From Granulosicoccus sp. (GTDB taxonomy: Bacteria > Pseudomonadota > Gammaproteobacteria > Granulosicoccales > Granulosicoccaceae), in assembly GCA_023301795.1 (NCBI GenBank), contig JALZVU010000066.1:1-43102 (forward strand): a DNA stretch of 43,102 nt, written 5' to 3'. The notes beneath the pieces were generated by a model. The model was not told the origin of the DNA. It was given only the letters and a program-made list of their open reading frames with translations, and made no database searches. The stretch's first letter is position 1, and every line of letters starts with the position of its first letter. Both the position numbers and the translations under genes were made by a program. This document shows, in pieces, positions 35,602 to 43,102 of the stretch.

Positions 35602-36477
35602 TCAGAGTTTATGAAAGTGTTCTTTTAGTGCCTGGATATGCGCAGGGCCGACCTCGCAACAACCGCCAATAATCGTTGCACCATCAGCCGCCCAGCTTTT
35701 AGCGAACTGGACATAGGCATCGGGGCCCAGATCGGTGCGTTTTTCTAGTAGGTCGACAGTGGCGCCCACCTTGTTGAAGGCAGCATTTATTGAGGTGAAG
35801 CCATTGGCATAGGCGCCTGTGGCTGGCGCAAGATCTTTTATGATGGCAACGGCAACAGACACAGGCTCAGGGGCAGAGCAATTGATTAACACAGCTTCTG
35901 GTGAGTATTCTTCGATAAGTGATTGAATATCGGACAATGGCTCGCCGGAGCGAAGCTTGCTGCCATCGGTATCAAGAACAGAAAAAGCTATCCAGGCAGG
36001 TTTATCTTGCGTACTCATGGCCATAAGCGCGCCGCGCGCCTGATCGATTGATGACATTGTTTCAGCCAGAAACACATCGACATATTCTTTTTGAATGTTG
36101 CAGACCTGATGGTAGATCTCTGCGGCTTGTTCTGCGGGCGGACATTCGTCCGGCTGGTAGGAGAATCCTTGTGGGCCGAGTGAGCCTGCCACCAGTCCAC
36201 TGCCGTGAGCATCACGAGCCTTCACTGCCTGAGTACAAGCCAAGCGCTGAAGCTTGTCCATCTGGCTGAGCAGCTGATGGTATTCCAGCCTGTCGGGCAA
36301 AATGGAATATGTGTTGGTCGTGGCAATCTGGGCGCCGCTGTTAAAGTAGTCAGTGTGAATTTGCCTAACAAGATCCGGATCATCAAGTAGAGACTGCACG
36401 GACCAGAGTGATGTGGTTACACCGGAGCGTGCAATGAGCTCCTGCCCCATGCCGCCATCCAGTAAAGTGATAATCAT
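35602..36477 (-). CDS. Homocysteine S-methyltransferase-family protein
   Basis: A 291-residue (beta/alpha)8 zinc enzyme of the MmuM/BHMT/MetH-N family, which transfers a methyl group from a methyl-sulfonium or betaine donor to homocysteine. It starts I-I-T-L-L-D-G-G-M-G-Q-E-L, and T-N-T-Y follows. The three zinc cysteines are present: C200 in I-N-C-S-A-P-E and C273-C274 in I-G-G-C-C-E-V. The ATG at 36477 is preferred over the extended frame from 36501. The neighbouring BCCT carrier suggests a betaine-like donor. It lies 114 bases after the chorismate-mutase-like gene. Confidence 0.9.
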   Translation of the reverse strand: MIITLLDGGMGQELIARSGVTTSLWSVQSLLDDPDLVRQIHTDYFNSGAQIATTNTYSILPDRLEYHQLLSQMDKLQRLACTQAVKARDAHGSGLVAGSLGPQGFSYQPDECPPAEQAAEIYHQVCNIQKEYVDVFLAETMSSIDQARGALMAMSTQDKPAWIAFSVLDTDGSKLRSGEPLSDIQSLIEEYSPEAVLINCSAPEPVSVAVAIIKDLAPATGAYANGFTSINAAFNKVGATVDLLEKRTDLGPDAYVQFAKSWAADGATIIGGCCEVGPAHIQALKEHFHKL

Positions 36478-36590
36478 CGCGTTTGCTCGAACTTGCCACA
36501 CAGCAAAGCTGTGCAGAATGAATGGGTGGCTCGGAAGGCGATATGACTGTGTCCCACAGAGCGGCCCCGAGTGGCCGAATGATGCCTGTA

Positions 36591-37304
36591 TCAGCGAGCT
36601 GCGTCTATACGCATGCGCAGGTAATCAATTTCGATATCAATGGTGGTGCGAATCATGAACTCAAAGGTATCGATAGCGTGTTGGTCACCTAGCTCGTAGC
36701 GTGTCGCCAGATTGACAGCCAGCTCCATGACCTGGGCTTCGCGGTCTTTTTTGACGAGCAGGCCCAGCATGGCGTCTTTGTCCCCAGCGGTATCGATAAA
36801 TGCCTGAGGTTGTTCGAGGAACTTGGCTTCGGCTACTGATTTTCCTAGATTCACGCGCTCCATGATGGCCAGTAGCGCAACGACATCGGATGTGACCGTT
36901 TCGCCAAATGTTTCGGTGTCCTCGCCTGGTTCGCAACATCGCTGCAACAGTTGTTGGTAGAAAGCGATAATCTGATCGCCGACACCACTGTCCATAGAAT
37001 GAAGCGGGCTATAGGGCAGAGGACGATCGATGGCGGGCAGCACATCACTAACGGGGGTGAATGCTTCTTGCGCTGCAAAAGTGTAACGGCCAAGCTCAGC
37101 ATGGCAGCGTTCGATATTCCCCAGCACATGATGCAGTAGTGATACATCAGGTCTGGATTGGACCAGACCTGCTTTATACACGGCAGCGTTCAGCGGAAAG
37201 CGTGTCCGCTTTTTTAACGCAATGATTATTTCGTTTGCCAGGATATCCAGCCCCGGGCGAATTTTGCCAGCTAGATCAAGGTGTGGGTGAAGCAGGTTGG
37301 GCAT
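36591..37304 (-). CDS. Chorismate-mutase-like helical protein, unknown function
   Basis: A 237-residue soluble, mostly helical protein. Residues about 10-95 (I-R-P-G-L-D-I-L-A-N-E-I-I-I-A-L-K-K-R-T-R) resemble the first helix and following region of an AroQ-type chorismate mutase: an R-x(3)-D-x(3)-N/D-E-I pattern. The usual lysine/glutamine active-site set is not clearly complete, and the remaining 140 residues have no counterpart. It has a C-C pair near residue 124. It lies between the BCCT carrier and the methyltransferase, so a role in N-methyl-compound or carboxylate metabolism is more likely than aromatic amino acid synthesis. The gene is well supported; the fold call is weak. Confidence 0.55.
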   Translation of the reverse strand: MPNLLHPHLDLAGKIRPGLDILANEIIIALKKRTRFPLNAAVYKAGLVQSRPDVSLLHHVLGNIERCHAELGRYTFAAQEAFTPVSDVLPAIDRPLPYSPLHSMDSGVGDQIIAFYQQLLQRCCEPGEDTETFGETVTSDVVALLAIMERVNLGKSVAEAKFLEQPQAFIDTAGDKDAMLGLLVKKDREAQVMELAVNLATRYELGDQHAIDTFEFMIRTTIDIEIDYLRMRIDAAR

Positions 37305-37332: not shown

Positions 37333-37395
37333 CTAGGCTGGATTATTCATGAAATCACCCAATCCTTTTTGCATTTCATGAATAGTCCAGTCTAG
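37333..37395. repeat. Long hairpin with 23-bp arms
   Basis: CTAGGCTGGATTATTCATGA... (37333-37355) is the inverse of 37373-37395, with 21 of 23 positions matching and a 17-base loop containing TTTTT. Each arm contains the CTGGAYTATTCATGAAAT motif. It lies upstream of the chorismate-mutase-like gene and downstream of the BCCT gene, so it might also stop BCCT transcription. Confidence 0.85.
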
Positions 37396-37547: not shown

Positions 37548-38762
37548 TCAAGCAGATTCGATCTTGGTGAAATCCAGTGTGTTTTCTGTTGGAGAGCTTT
37601 CGATGTCCATGATCTGATGGTGTCGCGTAAACACAATGTAGGCAACGCAGCTGAGATAGATTCCGACAACGATAGCGCCGATCCACTGTATTTGCAGCCA
37701 CTGGCTTTGAAACAGAAGCGTTAAGCCAAACAGCACGGCAACGTTCCCCCCGACATAGGTAAGCTTGCCAAAACGCGCTGTGGTGATTGACAGGTTGTCC
37801 GAGTAAAGTCGTATCAGGCTGTCCAGAGAATTGACAACAAATGTGATGCCGACAATCACCATCGCTATGTTGAGAACACCTTGTGTGCTGATGTCGTTGG
37901 CATGGTAGTAGTACAGCACTGAAAACCAGATGGCCAGTGGAATGGATGGAATGATAAGCAATGCCAGTAGTAGATGCTGAGTCTTCATTCCGCCCACAAA
38001 GCGTGATGTGAACTGGCCAATCATGATGGACCAGGCAAACCACCAGAACAGATAGAACTCGTGATAAGCATTGATCGGTAATACAAACTCATGCAGGTTG
38101 GAAAAATAGCCACCAATGAGCCCCAGATTACTGGCCATCTCGCCTGGGCCAATGCCTGCATAAACCCACATGCCGACAATCAATGCCATGAAAAGACAGG
38201 TGGAACCAACGCTGAGAATTTTCACGAACCGAATATCAGTACTGGAATACGCTGCAGCGAGAATGACGCAAAACACAATGACGTAAAACGTCACTACAAC
38301 GCTTTCTCCATCACCGATCTCAGGTATATATCCTGGCAAGTAGATGAGAAACAGGCTGGCAGTGAATGCACAGGTGCCGACAATAACAATATTGTTCAGT
38401 ACTTTGACAAACGGGATCTGGAAAAACTTCACACGGGGTTCAATGACGCAGAAATAGAAGCTGGTGAGAAAATAGAAGCCCCAGATAAGAAAGCCCCAGA
38501 AGCCAAATTCAATGGCCAGTGGATTCGTAAATCCGTATTCGGGTGAGGTTGCTGTATCAGCGTAAGTAGCAAATTCGCTCAACGGAAACATGATGAGTCC
38601 TACATCAAGCCCGGAGGTAAACAATATGGCGATGAACGTGAATAGTGGAACAGGTGTGACGCCAATAACTCGCAGGTTCCACCATTTGACAACACAGAAA
38701 ACAACTAGAGCCAGGGCAAGAAGCACCCCGATTGCGATGACTATCGATAATAGTGACGCCAT
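37548..38762 (-). CDS. BCCT-family transporter, short divergent member
   Basis: A 404-residue polytopic protein with roughly 10-12 helices. The BCCT motif region is W-W-F-A-W-S-I-M-I-G-Q-F-T-S-R-F-V-G-G near residue 240, followed by a P-S-I-P-L-A-I-W-F segment, which matches the conserved W-W-x-x-W-x-x-x-x-G-x-F helix-8 motif of betaine/choline/carnitine transporters. The normal length is 480-680, so this one is short and has lost much of the N-terminal and C-terminal extensions; the conserved prolines are partly changed. It probably imports a quaternary or N-methylated amine for the enzymes encoded around it. No ribosome site is obvious. Confidence 0.72.
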   Translation of the reverse strand: MASLLSIVIAIGVLLALALVVFCVVKWWNLRVIGVTPVPLFTFIAILFTSGLDVGLIMFPLSEFATYADTATSPEYGFTNPLAIEFGFWGFLIWGFYFLTSFYFCVIEPRVKFFQIPFVKVLNNIVIVGTCAFTASLFLIYLPGYIPEIGDGESVVVTFYVIVFCVILAAAYSSTDIRFVKILSVGSTCLFMALIVGMWVYAGIGPGEMASNLGLIGGYFSNLHEFVLPINAYHEFYLFWWFAWSIMIGQFTSRFVGGMKTQHLLLALLIIPSIPLAIWFSVLYYYHANDISTQGVLNIAMVIVGITFVVNSLDSLIRLYSDNLSITTARFGKLTYVGGNVAVLFGLTLLFQSQWLQIQWIGAIVVGIYLSCVAYIVFTRHHQIMDIESSPTENTLDFTKIESA

Positions 38763-38879: not shown

Positions 38880-39533
38880 TTACGTTAAGGATTGCTGAGC
38901 CAATGAATTTATCCATTTAATCGATTCCTCTGTCGTGCAAAGGTCGGCATATTTAGCGTTCATATCATAGAGATTGGCATCATGCGGCCCTTGCGCGCGA
39001 TCACCCACAGCATCACTGATTACAACGGTAATGAATCCATGCGACATGCTATCGACACAACTTGCACGGACACAGCCTGAGGTGGTCACGCCTGCCAGTA
39101 AAACGGTGTCAATTTTTAACCAGTGAAGAGTTGATGCTAAAGAGGTTCCAAAGAATGCACTGGGGTATTGTTTGGATATCAGGATGTCGTCTGCCTCCAT
39201 CCTGAGGCCATCAGCCAGACGTTGGGAGTCGCGTCCCTCTTCAAAGCAGGCCAGAGCGGCACCGGCTTTATGGAAAAATGCACCACCGTTGCCACCGCCT
39301 GGTTGATAGATAACTTCGGTAAAGATAATCGGAATCCCTGCATCGCGTGCTTTGGGCACCAGACGGATTGCATTGTCTAGTGCCGTTTGGCACCCTTCAC
39401 CGCCGTACAAAGGTTGCGTCTCATCAAAGTAGGCTTGAGCAAAATCCACCAGCAACAACGCTGGGCGTTGGCCCCAGCGTTGTGGTGCGTGGTAGCCTGC
39501 ACGGGCGTAATTACTATCCAGTGATTCGCTCAT
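38880..39533 (-). CDS. Isochorismatase-family amidase, N-carbamoylsarcosine amidohydrolase-like
   Basis: A 217-residue cysteine hydrolase. The catalytic triad is complete: D30 (L-L-L-V-D-F-A), K121 (I-S-K-Q-Y-P-S-A-F-F-G-T) and C154 (T-T-S-G-C-V-R-A-S). The K-Q-Y-x-S-A-F-F-G-T and S-G-C-V-R-A motifs are those of N-carbamoylsarcosine amidohydrolase, which yields sarcosine, ammonia and CO2. The ATG at 39533 lies 6 bases after the hyuB stop, so the two are cotranscribed. Other N-carbamoyl substrates are possible. Confidence 0.85.
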   Translation of the reverse strand: MSESLDSNYARAGYHAPQRWGQRPALLLVDFAQAYFDETQPLYGGEGCQTALDNAIRLVPKARDAGIPIIFTEVIYQPGGGNGGAFFHKAGAALACFEEGRDSQRLADGLRMEADDILISKQYPSAFFGTSLASTLHWLKIDTVLLAGVTTSGCVRASCVDSMSHGFITVVISDAVGDRAQGPHDANLYDMNAKYADLCTTEESIKWINSLAQQSLT

Positions 39534-39539
39534 GAGCGT

Positions 39540-41432
39540 TTAATGGCTGGCTTGTGTGCGAGCTGTATGTGCCGCAAAGCGTGGAGCCTTTGGTGGCTCA
39601 AACCCAGTCTCGGCAAGACATCGTGACTTCAACTCTTCAATGGAGGTGAACCCTCGATTGAACAGTTGCTTTTCAGTACCTGTCTGGGCGCTTGCCATGC
39701 TGGTGCGCAGGGCTGCAGTAGCAGCTTCATCCACTTGCTCATCAACGATGACGACGCCGTAGCGTTTTGCGCCATCAACAGAGACCAAAGCCCGATTGAC
39801 GTCAGCCATGACCAATGCTGGATCACGTGCCAGAGGATCACCCCAGCCGCCGCCGCCCCATGTATCAAAAAATAGGATGTCGCCAGGTTGCACACTAATG
39901 CGATCGCATTTGGAGGGCAAGTTTTCGACGGTGCCATCAATGCGGTTAAGTGTTTTGGAAGAACGGGTGCCAGGCTCTCCGCCGTTCACGCCCCATGGTG
40001 ATGTCAGCCAGCGATCATCATGAATGGAAATTTCTCCGGGTTCCAGCATCTCATAAGCGATGCGGATACCGTTGCCACCGCGATGCAAGCCGGCACCCCC
40101 AGAATCGATAATGGTGGAGTATTCACGTATACGCAATGGAAAGTAGGCCTCGAGAAATTCATTGGGTACGTTGGTAAAGGCAGGCCATAATGAATGGCCG
40201 TCAGGTCCGTCGCCTGCGGGGCGGCCGGGGATACCACCAAAGCCAATTTGAAATAGCTGGTACCACTCTTCATTGCTATCAAAGCCTGAGTACATGAAGT
40301 GGGGGCTGTCAGAGAAGCCTGCTGCATTCAGGGCATCAGGAGCACCTTGCCCCAACAGTCCGCCCATCAAGTCGAATATGCGTCCTAACATGTGGGTGCG
40401 ACATGACAGCGCTGCAGGTTTCTTTGGCTTGAGAATACTGCCTTCTGGAATATGGACATCCACCAGATCATAGAAGCCATCATTAAACAGAATCTGCGGA
40501 TCAAACAGGTTGATGGTAAAAGCGCCAAAGAACATTTTGAACATTTCTTCGTTCAGCAGAAAGTTTATTGATGACGAAGATTGAGGGTCAGAGCCTGTGA
40601 AGTCGAAATAGGCAACCTCTCCATCACGCCATAATGTACAGGCAATCTTGTAGGGACCGTTGCCCATTCCGTCATCATCAATCCAGTCTTCAAAGTAGGC
40701 CTTGTTCTCTGGAATAATCATCTGGATTATTGCAGCCATGGCACTCTTGTTTCTGTCCAGCATGTCTTGCATGGCTGAGATATAAGTATCTGTGCCAAAG
40801 CGTGCAATGTTCTCGCGCACGCGCCTTTCGGCAAGACGAAGGGCTGCGATGATGGCAAAGAAGTCAGATTTGTTCCATTCTGGCATGCGGCAATTGGCAA
40901 GCAGCAAATTCAAGAGTTCACTGTTGAGTTCACCACCGCGATAGATTTTACTGGGCGGGATGATGATGCCTTCCTCATAAATCATCTTGGCATCAGTAGG
41001 CAGAGAGCCAGGTACTTTTCCACCCACATCGGTCATGTGTCCAAACATGGCTGCCCAGCTGACCAGACGTCCCTCGTGGAAAATGGGCATCATCAGTAGC
41101 CAGTCGTTGAGGTGACTGACTGCGCCGTTGCAGGAGTAGGGGTCGTTGGTCAGGAAGATGTCACCTTCCTCAATAGTGCCTTCGTAGCCTTGCATGAAGC
41201 CGTACAGAAAAGAGCCGAACTGACCGACAACCATCTTGCCCTCTTCATTGGCGATCAGTGGGAAGGCGTCGTGTTGTTCGCGAATACCGGGTGACATGGC
41301 TGTTCTGAACAGCACGGCATCCATTTCATTACGGGCGTTGCGTAGCGCATTCTCGACAATGTCCAGCGTGATCGGATCTACGGGAATCCGGTTAAAAGGA
41401 GCTGGGTGTGTTTCTATGATGGTAGCGACCAT
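39540..41432 (-). CDS. Hydantoinase B / 5-oxoprolinase C-terminal subunit
   Basis: A 630-residue protein of the HyuB family, which partners HyuA in ATP-dependent ring opening of hydantoins or 5-oxoproline. D-P-I-T-L-D-I-V-E-N-A-L at the start, H-D-A-F-P, L-T-N-D-P-Y (residues 90-95) and G-G-A-G-L-H-R-G-G-N-G near 470 are typical, as is F-F-D-T-W-G-G-G-G-W-G-D-P near 540. The start is the ATG at 41432, with AGGAG about 10 bases upstream, 4 bases past the hyuA stop; a longer frame to 41477 is unlikely. Length is normal. Confidence 0.94.
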   Translation of the reverse strand: MVATIIETHPAPFNRIPVDPITLDIVENALRNARNEMDAVLFRTAMSPGIREQHDAFPLIANEEGKMVVGQFGSFLYGFMQGYEGTIEEGDIFLTNDPYSCNGAVSHLNDWLLMMPIFHEGRLVSWAAMFGHMTDVGGKVPGSLPTDAKMIYEEGIIIPPSKIYRGGELNSELLNLLLANCRMPEWNKSDFFAIIAALRLAERRVRENIARFGTDTYISAMQDMLDRNKSAMAAIIQMIIPENKAYFEDWIDDDGMGNGPYKIACTLWRDGEVAYFDFTGSDPQSSSSINFLLNEEMFKMFFGAFTINLFDPQILFNDGFYDLVDVHIPEGSILKPKKPAALSCRTHMLGRIFDLMGGLLGQGAPDALNAAGFSDSPHFMYSGFDSNEEWYQLFQIGFGGIPGRPAGDGPDGHSLWPAFTNVPNEFLEAYFPLRIREYSTIIDSGGAGLHRGGNGIRIAYEMLEPGEISIHDDRWLTSPWGVNGGEPGTRSSKTLNRIDGTVENLPSKCDRISVQPGDILFFDTWGGGGWGDPLARDPALVMADVNRALVSVDGAKRYGVVIVDEQVDEAATAALRTSMASAQTGTEKQLFNRGFTSIEELKSRCLAETGFEPPKAPRFAAHTARTQASH

Positions 41433-41436
41433 GATT

Positions 41437-43102
41437 TTAAGCTCCTGTGTTGGGGGTTGTTGTGTTGACAAAATCATCAGGCGTGATGATCAGATTGCCG
41501 GCGTCATCCACGATCGCCGTATGTGCTGGCAGGATGAGTGTTGTGCTGTCCATTTCACTGACGATGGCAGGTCCGGTAATGTTGTTCTGGGGTTTGAGTT
41601 TTGCGCGCTCATAGATGGTTGCGTCGTGCCATTCACCATCGGCATAGACTTTGGTCTGTGATAATACAGCTGCTGCATCGACGGTCGAATCGCCTTGGTT
41701 GGCCTCTGTATTCAAAAACGCTCGCTCTTGTCCCTGTACAACGGCGCGCAGTGCCACCAGTTCGTGCTCTGCATCTAGCGCGAAAGTGAACAGCTGTTCG
41801 TGTTCGGCGTCGAACCTTGTAGTGATCCCTTGAAGTCCATCACTGTTCCATTGCTCGGGTGTGGTGGCAATGGTGAGTTTCATGCCCTGACCGGCGTAGC
41901 GTATATCGACCTCAAACAGGACGTCCTGCTGATCCAGCGGTACGCCCTCAGTGCTTAACGCTTCAGCTGCCTGATCGCGTAATGATTGCAGGCGCTGCGT
42001 GATATCACTATCGGATGTGGCGCTCAAGCGTGTGACAAATGTCTGGCTGGCCTCATTGCGCAAGCGTGTTGTTACATCGCCATAAGCGCACAGCACACCG
42101 GGGCCGGGTGGCACAATCACAGGCCAGCTGTTGATTAAACGAGCGATGGCATTGGCATGCAAGGGTCCTGCACCACCAAATCCCATGAGAGCGAAATCAC
42201 GAGGATCATAACCTTGCTCCACAGAGACCAGGCGCAAGGCGCCGCACATGTTTTCGTTAACAATCTGGACAATACCTTCGGCCGCTTTTTCCAGTGATAT
42301 ACCCAGAGAGTCCGCCACGGTTTGAACCGCCTTGCTGGCCAGCTCATGACTGATCTGCATGTCGCCACCCAGACGGGCATCGGCAGGCAGGTAGCCCAGA
42401 ACCACATTGGCATCGGTTACCGTCGGCGCTTCACCACCTTTGGCATACGCTGCGGGTCCTGGTACAGCGCCTGCCGACTGTGGGCCTACTCTGAGTGCTT
42501 TGGTAAGATCGGGAACATACGCAATGGAGCCTCCACCTGCGCCCACGGTGCGCACATCAATGGACGGTGCACGAACCGTGACATCCGCCACGCGAGTTTC
42601 TCGGCGCGTGCGTGCTGTGCCGTTCTGGATGAGAGCAACGTCTGTGGATGTGCCGCCCATATCAAACGTCAGCAGGTTTTGAAAGCCAGCCTGCTTTGCT
42701 ACCCATAATGCACCACTGACCCCACCGGCAGGGCCAGACATGAGCAGATTCACAGGGATATCCATGGCTGATTGTGATGAAGACAAGCCACCATCGGAGC
42801 GTAGTATCTGCAGCATGAGGTTGTCGCCCATACGTGCTTTTAGCTCGCGTTGCAGGTTATCGATGTAGCGCGACACCACGGGGCGAACATAGGAATTAAC
42901 CACCGTGGTCTCGGTGCGCTCGTATTCATACATCTCCGGCATAATGGAGCCAGAGGTTGACACAGGAATGTCAGGTGCCATCTCGCGTGCAATATCCGCT
43001 ATGCGGTGTTCATGTGCATCGTTGACGTAAGCATTAAACAAGGCAATCGTGAGTGCTTCAATGCCGCTGTCAAGCAGTTTTTGTAGATCGCGGCGCAGTG
43101 CG
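41437..43102 (-). CDS. Hydantoinase A / 5-oxoprolinase N-terminal subunit, N-terminus cut by window edge
   Basis: The frame stays open to the right edge (555 residues seen; ...A-L-R-R-D-L-Q-K-L-L-D-S-G-I-E-A-L). HyuA is usually about 680-700 residues, so roughly 130 are outside. It is an actin/ASKHA-fold ATPase: S-G-P-A-G-G-V-S-G-A, T-F-D-M-G-G-T-S-T-D-V-A-L-I and G-G-A-G-P-L-H-A are diagnostic, as is D-A-N-V-V-L-G-Y-L. It phosphorylates the amide oxygen so that the ring can be opened by HyuB. Operon with hyuB and the amidase. Confidence 0.94.
   Translation of the reverse strand, partial: ALRRDLQKLLDSGIEALTIALFNAYVNDAHEHRIADIAREMAPDIPVSTSGSIMPEMYEYERTETTVVNSYVRPVVSRYIDNLQRELKARMGDNLMLQILRSDGGLSSSQSAMDIPVNLLMSGPAGGVSGALWVAKQAGFQNLLTFDMGGTSTDVALIQNGTARTRRETRVADVTVRAPSIDVRTVGAGGGSIAYVPDLTKALRVGPQSAGAVPGPAAYAKGGEAPTVTDANVVLGYLPADARLGGDMQISHELASKAVQTVADSLGISLEKAAEGIVQIVNENMCGALRLVSVEQGYDPRDFALMGFGGAGPLHANAIARLINSWPVIVPPGPGVLCAYGDVTTRLRNEASQTFVTRLSATSDSDITQRLQSLRDQAAEALSTEGVPLDQQDVLFEVDIRYAGQGMKLTIATTPEQWNSDGLQGITTRFDAEHEQLFTFALDAEHELVALRAVVQGQERAFLNTEANQGDSTVDAAAVLSQTKVYADGEWHDATIYERAKLKPQNNITGPAIVSEMDSTTLILPAHTAIVDDAGNLIITPDDFVNTTTPNTGA

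Follow-up and report, generated by a model that had tools for sequence, protein, structure and literature searches.

HyuAB and an isochorismatase-fold amidase of Granulosicoccus sp. as the candidate core of a cyclic-imide catabolic operon

The stretch of DNA analysed here, referred to as the window, is the entire contig C66 (JALZVU010000066.1, 43102 bases) of a draft Granulosicoccus sp. genome (GCA_023301795.1; 313 contigs, 97.0% complete). At its end lie three adjacent minus-strand genes, hyuA, hyuB and AMID, for the two subunits of a putative ATP-dependent lactamase and an isochorismatase-fold cysteine amidase. We lean towards reading these three genes as the core of an operon for the breakdown of a small cyclic imide or a closely similar cyclic amide, and not of creatinine, to whose N-methylhydantoin-to-sarcosine branch the initial annotation had assigned them. 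The catalytic residues of the encoded proteins are intact, relatives carry partner genes for a coenzyme A (CoA) transferase, a lyase and a hydratase, and genes for a lyase of the same kind and for a GntR regulator stand at another contig end of the same genome.

The HyuA-HyuB pair

The annotated adjacency of hyuA, hyuB and an isochorismatase-family amidase gene is confirmed by the open reading frames (ORFs) and by Pfam matches to Hydantoinase_A (305.8 bits), Hydantoinase_B (498.2 bits) and Isochorismatase (118.9 bits), respectively. The annotated spacings of 4 bases between hyuA and hyuB and of 6 bases between hyuB and the amidase gene are obtained with a hyuB start at 41432, an internal ATG (MVATI...) which, from comparison with locus L012, is most likely the true start. 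As the window is a whole contig, nothing upstream of position 43102 is readable on C66; compared with L012, HyuA is without approximately 150 residues, and its N-terminal domain profile is matched only from position 135 of 176 (Pfam).

Adjacent HyuA and HyuB domains are found together with a metal site of the caprolactamase type, as expected of an ATP-dependent lactamase. In HyuB the residues Asp70, His122, Asp125 and His147 (numbering from 41477) are kept in all 20 aligned members. The latter three are spaced like the metal ligands His99, Asp102 and His124 of caprolactamase CapB (excerpt of PMC8453981), and Asp70 may be a fourth ligand. Both architecture and metal-site motif are common to the window pair, CapAB, 5-oxoprolinase and N-methylhydantoinase, the last of which is the top solved-structure match of HyuA (341.8 bits). 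The nearest NCBIfam model of HyuA is the caprolactamase subunit CapA with 452 bits against a cut-off of 1000, a score lowered by the truncation of the protein, and HyuB reaches 209 bits with the CapB equivalog model (cut-off 1000). Both proteins therefore lie far below the CapA/CapB equivalog cut-offs, and the neighbour genes of the window pair differ from those of this family as well.

The amidase

Asp30, Lys121 and Cys154, which we take to be the catalytic residues of AMID, are present in all 85 relatives compared and in all four Protein Data Bank (PDB) references, namely two chains of N-carbamoylsarcosine amidohydrolase (CSHase) and two of maleamate amidase. Arg179, presumably carboxylate-binding and the counterpart of CSHase Arg202, is found in 82 of the 85 relatives and in the same four references. 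Lys121 and Cys154 thus stand where the initial annotation had placed them, with Asp30 besides; having been cited there as motifs of CSHase, they are equally present in the maleamate amidases and do not discriminate between the two enzymes.

The best sequence matches of AMID are PDB entry 26st (deposited as N-carbamoylsarcosine amidohydrolase, 134.9 bits), the maleamate amidases NicF (130.7 bits) and Ami (125.0 bits), and Arthrobacter CSHase (89.4 bits). The predicted structure of AMID (mean predicted local distance difference test score, pLDDT, 91.4) was ranked by fold against Ami (Z 29.9), NicF (29.5), the cysteine hydrolase 3irv (27.4) and Arthrobacter CSHase (1nba, 26.9), and Foldseek likewise places Ami and NicF first and 1nba next. 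Among the structures in these fold listings, which leave out the nearest sequence, 26st, the predicted fold of AMID ranks nearest to the maleamate amidases. In the comparison with Arthrobacter CSHase, suggested as a check of the creatinine assignment, that enzyme ranks below the maleamate amidases by fold, while by sequence 26st is marginally nearer than they are.

NicF (3ot4/3uao) and Ami (4l07/4l08), which act in aerobic nicotinate or nicotine breakdown, share the fold of AMID (Z 29.3-29.9, rmsd 1.6), 32-37% sequence identity, the Asp-Lys-Cys triad and the carboxylate-binding arginine. They convert a half-amide to a diacid, as AMID would do. Their pathway differs in its ring opening, which is carried out by a dioxygenase and a deformylase, whereas the window has HyuAB as ring opener and its relatives have a CoA-transferase and lyase or LeuCD as partners. 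CSHase and RutB also have the same fold as AMID. With N-carbamoylsarcosine amidohydrolase (1nba; 26st as deposited) AMID has the superfamily and the catalytic residues in common, but the fold score of 1nba is lower and the partner genes in relatives are different.

Conserved partner genes in relatives

Gene neighbourhoods were compared in 65 loci and in further loci from additional genomes. Genes were assigned as homology-guided ORF picks, not by a gene finder, and include some false overlaps or shadow ORFs. In a table of 41 loci, the window included, L019/L149 and L013/L110 each represent one contig twice, L111 and L160 overlap, and many loci had been found via the amidase, which biases the table. 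Counts are hence quoted for 14 loci sampled through HyuB from the whole phylum (12-18 kb each, the window not counted); L154 and L156 among them also provided reference proteins for scoring, and L149 is on the same contig as L019. As controls served 19 loci of other PF02538 (HyuB) genes, which come from nearer relatives and span 3.2-18 kb, several of them being short contigs. They were drawn from 30 listed places, the other 11 being four fragments, three case loci and four that were not fetched.

A CaiB-type CoA-transferase (CaiB) together with a lyase resembling 3-hydroxy-3-methylglutaryl-CoA (HMG-CoA) lyase (HMGL), and/or the hydratase pair LeuC and LeuD (LeuCD), is present in 14/14 HyuB-sampled loci and in 1/19 controls, the groups not being matched. 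AMID is found in 12 of the 14 loci (not in L147 and L153), CaiB with HMGL in ten and LeuC with LeuD in seven; in the controls AMID, CaiB and HMGL are each found in 0/19 and LeuCD in 1/19. CaiB, HMGL, HyuA, HyuB, AMID and LeuCD occur all together in L152, L154 and L155, with LeuCD on the opposite strand in L152. Loci with HyuAB, the amidase and parts of this set belong to Granulosicoccaceae, Roseobacteraceae/Paracoccaceae, Erythrobacteraceae and Halieaceae. L014 comes from the cultured Roseisalinus antarcticus CECT 7023, in which the genes look complete.

The lyase scores 290 bits with the HMG-CoA lyase subfamily model (cut-off 246); its motifs HxH and GGCP[YF] are found in 18/18 members and PRDG.Q in 14/18. 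For CaiB, the top matches of solved structure include succinate-hydroxymethylglutarate CoA-transferase (210 bits, third sequence), and the LeuC of L154 reaches 720 bits against a LeuC cut-off of 560. In all six LeuCD-carrying genomes checked (G108, G379, G358, G284, G488 and G483) the LeuC of the locus is one of at least two copies. A GntR/FCD regulator is a further neighbour, as are TonB receptors (in Erythrobacter and in some of the gammaproteobacterial loci) and, in loci of the roseobacter type and of Granulosicoccaceae, an ABC importer of the ribose type.

The window genome and its sister genome

Contig C56 (3499 bases) of the window genome ends within an HMGL homologue, 71% identical over 65 aligned residues to that of L014, which adjoins a GntR/FCD regulator gene. 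The closest amidase match (88% identity) is found in the same-genus genome G008. There, residues 23-284 of CaiB are encoded at the start of one contig, ahead of divergent HMGL and GntR genes, and residues 275-417 at the start of the contig that holds HyuA-HyuB-AMID. Because CaiB is split in G008 over two contig ends, one on the HMGL/GntR side and one on the HyuA-HyuB-AMID side, the window genome likely has the same order, with CaiB in an assembly gap. A YdiJ-like (D-2-hydroxyglutarate dehydrogenase-like) protein is encoded beside the regulator on C56; a role for it in the pathway was weighed and discarded, since G008 has no YdiJ match beside its regulator.

A second, divergent module is present in the window genome as well (Table 1). 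Contig C180 carries HyuB (29% identical to that of the window), HyuA, an isochorismatase-family match, a flavoprotein and an isocitrate lyase (ICL)-type lyase. LeuCD and TRAP-like ORFs are located on C187; in G010 (L227) the counterparts of all these genes are in one place. The occurrence of a divergent HyuAB and amidase with LeuCD and a C-C lyase in the same genome adds weight to the general scheme. A further LeuCD of this genome, on C310, has a LeuB-like ORF close by.

Exchange of the ring opener

L130 and L227 have LeuCD, an ICL-type lyase, a TcuA-like flavoprotein and an isochorismatase-family amidase in common, and TRAP-like and GntR-like ORFs can be read from the sequence in both, but two PuuE-like genes in L130 take the place of HyuAB in L227. 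In L109 the order GntR-HMGL-CaiB-AMID is found with a PuuE-like gene and no HyuAB. This locus additionally encodes an amidase-signature protein and, in a partial ORF, what looks like an FAD monooxygenase. The opener is thus exchanged for a PuuE/HxnM-like protein within a similar gene set twice, in L130 relative to L227 and in L109 relative to the window set; the replacing proteins are putative imidases, and the L130 amidase is not a close relative of the L227 one. The L109 protein matches PuuE and 3qbu (HpPgdA). HxnM, a fungal enzyme related to both, opens 3-hydroxypiperidine-2,6-dione, and the resulting half-amide is then hydrolysed by an amidase (excerpt of PMC9304392). This HxnM/HxnN nicotinate route of Aspergillus nidulans leads from a cyclic imide via a half-amide to a hydroxy diacid, as proposed for the window, and relatives of its PuuE-like imidase are present in sister clusters. 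It differs in that the window opener is the unrelated, ATP-dependent HyuAB and that in relatives a CoA-transferase and a lyase come after.

Across the 85 AMID loci (of 91 searched, the two repeated contigs included) HyuB alone is found in 35, PuuE alone in 12, both in three (L035, L057 and L058, with the genes apart) and neither in 35. A vitamin B6 or nicotinate route, considered for the amidase family on account of an FAD monooxygenase nearest to PnpA/HspB, a short-chain dehydrogenase/reductase (SDR), a lactonase-like and an EutA-like protein in rhizobial loci, was rejected for the window, HyuAB being absent from those loci or, in L035, about 7 kb off.

Proposed pathway

In the route that we infer for every step from these genes, HyuAB would open a cyclic imide with ATP to a half-amide bearing a carboxylate, and the amidase would remove the remaining amide as ammonia to yield a dicarboxylic acid. 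Where present, the LeuCD-like hydratase would hydrate a cis-unsaturated diacid to a hydroxy acid of the malate type; the CaiB-type (family III) CoA-transferase would activate the hydroxy acid to its CoA ester, which the HMG-CoA-lyase-like DRE-TIM enzyme would cleave to a 2-oxo acid and an acyl-CoA. The net chemistry would correspond to leucine- or citramalate-type reactions in reverse. LeuCD acts on isopropylmaleate and citraconate. A cyclic imide is the substrate class towards which, by a modest degree, we incline; that the substrate is of the 2-alkylmaleimide type, with citramalate-type intermediates, is a tentative proposal that could well be wrong.

Maleimides occur in nature: the oxidation of heme is described as ending in hematinic acid and methylvinylmaleimide, and the former has been detected in senescent leaves as a chlorophyll product (excerpt of PMC10343206). 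They are accordingly attractive but unproven candidate substrates. A single lyase, Rv2498c, takes both HMG-CoA and citramalyl-CoA, although its sequence is unrelated to that of the HMGL-like enzyme (excerpt of PMC6689899). CoA activation of a branched C5 diacid followed by C-C cleavage, as proposed here, is also known from itaconate/citramalate breakdown by CoA-transferase, hydratase and citramalyl-CoA lyase (PMC12290011), from which the proposed module differs by its nitrogen-ring front end. It also differs in its lyase, which we take to be of the HMG-CoA lyase (DRE-TIM) type and not CitE-like as in that route.

In some lineages the opener may be associated with uptake. HyuA and the ABC permease both carry an N-terminal heptad tag (like YEARLAEIEARLARVE) in L014, L019, L020, L024, L146 and L111, and neither does in L038. 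The heptad pattern is found within the first 140 residues of 16 of 1413 picked ORFs, every one a HyuA or an importer permease (two loci repeat others), a count that describes and does not test, as the pattern was written after viewing these sequences. The common coiled-coil tag suggests docking of the ring-opening HyuA on the importer. The complete scenario, in which marine and alga-associated Proteobacteria degrade alkylmaleimides such as hematinic acid and methylvinylmaleimide from chlorophyll, heme or bilin oxidation through a reversed leucine-type end, with HyuA in some lineages docked on the ABC importer via matching coiled coils at the N-termini and opening the ring on entry, is speculative and, taken as a whole, improbable.

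Alternative substrates

Several observations weigh against a cyclic imide as the substrate. By sequence, 26st is marginally the nearest match of AMID, and a tree places all four PDB references outside the AMID clade on long branches, in an unresolved fork, hence deciding for neither CSHase nor maleamate amidase. The L130 amidase is 33% identical to the nearest window-family reference, and the L227 amidase has 3kl2, triuret hydrolase and RutB as its nearest solved relatives instead of NicF, an indication of a ureide at that locus. The CaiB-HMGL clusters other than L152, L154 and L155 are without LeuCD in the stretches fetched, so that hydration is unexplained in them. LeuC is also found twice in G000, G045, G430 and G053, whose HyuAB locus has no LeuCD, but not in G341 and G064, the remaining two of the six further genomes checked. 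In the window genome no CaiB of more than 44% identity was found, the gap position being presumed. Imides are activated amides, and ATP need not be required to open them. Finally, eight of the 35 AMID loci with neither HyuB nor PuuE carry a RutA-type pyrimidine oxygenase, whose reaction gives a ureide. The amidase family therefore appears to serve other openers, perhaps with ureido substrates, and for part of the family a ureide stays open.

For the window genes themselves a ureide pathway, in which a hydantoin or dihydropyrimidine would be the ring opened by HyuAB and the amidase would cleave off the N-carbamoyl group in the manner of RutB and CSHase, is unlikely. Besides the shared fold, the RutA loci and the relatives of the L227 amidase named above, the RutA of the PuuE locus L028, the one RutA scanned, speaks for it with 629 bits against a cut-off of 498.3. 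However, RutA loci and HyuB loci do not overlap among the AMID loci, a dihydropyrimidinase-type D-hydantoinase is already encoded elsewhere in the window genome, on C149 (604.6 bits, cut-off 393.25), and an amino acid or enamine as product would leave CaiB, HMGL and LeuCD unexplained.

A six-membered imide is a special case of the cyclic-imide reading: a hydroxy- or methyl-glutarimide derived from a pyridine ring would yield 2-hydroxyglutarate or 3-hydroxy-3-methylglutarate. The fungal nicotinate route, with dehydrogenase, PuuE-like imidase and amidase (excerpt of PMC9304392), provides a model for it. It would also agree with the FAD monooxygenase, SDR and PuuE-like genes alongside AMID in rhizobial loci, with the CaiB match to succinate-hydroxymethylglutarate CoA-transferase, with the lyase score above the HMG-CoA lyase cut-off and with the YdiJ-like protein by the C56 regulator. 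The latter has no counterpart next to the regulator of the sister genome, and LeuCD-like hydratases act on diacids with a C4 backbone; we regard this variant as rather unlikely.

The assignment of the three genes to the creatinine branch, with HyuAB as N-methylhydantoinase and the amidase as CSHase, is not supported and very improbable. The two-step chemistry of that assignment stands insofar as an ATP-dependent opener of a cyclic amide is followed by a cysteine amidase, but N-methylhydantoin, N-carbamoylsarcosine and sarcosine as its compounds do not. In its favour, HyuAB and N-methylhydantoinase are of one family, HyuA has this enzyme as its top solved match, and the amidase finds its highest-scoring sequence match in a chain that bears the name N-carbamoylsarcosine amidohydrolase. 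Creatinine users have hyuB and cshA together (excerpt of PMC8864220). The genome is also not devoid of a sarcosine pathway: a search for sarcosine oxidase yielded the alpha subunit gene twice, on C46 and C4 and unlinked to the window genes. Against the assignment, a SoxA match is found in 1/91 loci of relatives. Linkage of sarcosine oxidase is not obligatory, since in C. glutamicum crnA/creT and cshA/hyuB lie apart in the genome (excerpt of PMC8864220).

A genome-wide search for a creatinine deaminase gave ten Amidohydro_3 matches. The eight proteins scanned, which comprise PhnM, a urease alpha fragment, two guanine deaminases, an adenine deaminase, the dihydropyrimidinase-type D-hydantoinase and two without assignment, include no recognised candidate, none of the eight fitting a cytosine- or creatinine-deaminase model. 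Creatininase, which would indicate the other creatinine branch, was not found in the genome. The stronger argument against creatinine is given by the conserved partners, as CoA-transferase, HMG-CoA-lyase-like enzyme and LeuCD have no place in a sarcosine route; the fold ranking of the amidase also speaks against it, and the motifs cited for it are shared with maleamate amidases.

Other features of the window and of related loci

Table 1. Positions of the genes of the window and of features found in related loci
Feature	Position	Strand	Description
hyuA	window 41437-43101	minus	554 aa present, ORF open at 5' end (contig end); ATP-binding subunit, hydantoinase/oxoprolinase type (ATP-dependent lactamase)
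hyuB	window 39540-41432 (longest ORF up to 41477)	minus	metal-binding hydrolase subunit; Pfam Hydantoinase_B
AMID (half-amidase)	window 38880-39533	minus	217 aa, isochorismatase-fold cysteine amidase; Pfam Isochorismatase
BCCT-like carrier	window 37548-38762	minus	404 aa; Pfam 26.0 bits, cut-off 27
Chorismate-mutase-like protein	window 36591-37304	minus
Homocysteine S-methyltransferase	window 35602-36501	minus
HTH-coiled-coil protein	L014:5010-5873, L019:5085-5762, L024:5106-5783		approximately 225-290 residues, between CaiB and HyuA; excisionase-like helix-turn-helix (HTH) start, long coiled-coil-like rest
Second, divergent module	L107:144-6819, L221:7162-9179, L227:3-13047		HyuAB, isochorismatase-family amidase, ICL-type lyase, TcuA-like flavoprotein, LeuCD, TRAP-like transporter

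The BCCT carrier, chorismate-mutase-like and homocysteine methyltransferase genes follow on the same strand as initially annotated, but do not travel with the module in the sampled loci and were dismissed as parts of a catabolic island. Among the ORFs picked in L012-L086, relatives of the chorismate-mutase-like protein and of the methyltransferase are absent, and the only match of the BCCT carrier is its own copy in L077. The ribose-type ABC genes downstream were dismissed likewise: the identity of ATPase and permease to their counterparts in other loci does not exceed 45%, and the binding protein has no match but itself among the compared loci.

The BCCT-like carrier is shorter than its Pfam model of 485 positions and scores just below the cut-off. 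The nearest model of the chorismate-mutase-like protein is TIGR01802 (91.8 bits, below the cut-off of 170.9), which we take to describe the plant/yeast type and hence to be unusual for a bacterium. Between these two genes lies an inverted repeat (37345-37383) with 11-base arms, ATTCATGAAAT and ATTTCATGAAT. Promoter and terminator scans gave counts no different from the range of shuffled sequences.

The HTH-coiled-coil protein is encoded between CaiB and HyuA in alphaproteobacterial loci and also in L111 and L259 of Granulosicoccaceae. Pfam recognises an HTH_17 domain in the protein of L014 and no domain in that of L019.

Conclusions

All enzyme families of the proposed route are known. The chain of HyuAB, half-amidase, LeuCD-like hydratase, CoA-transferase and HMG-CoA-lyase-like enzyme was not found described in term searches of the open-access literature. 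Literature searches for dimethylmaleate hydratase and dimethylmalate lyase likewise yielded nothing of use. If the cyclic-imide reading is true, it would correct a label, N-methylhydantoinase and N-carbamoylsarcosine amidase, under which similar genes may be filed elsewhere, and would supply one testable substrate class for them.

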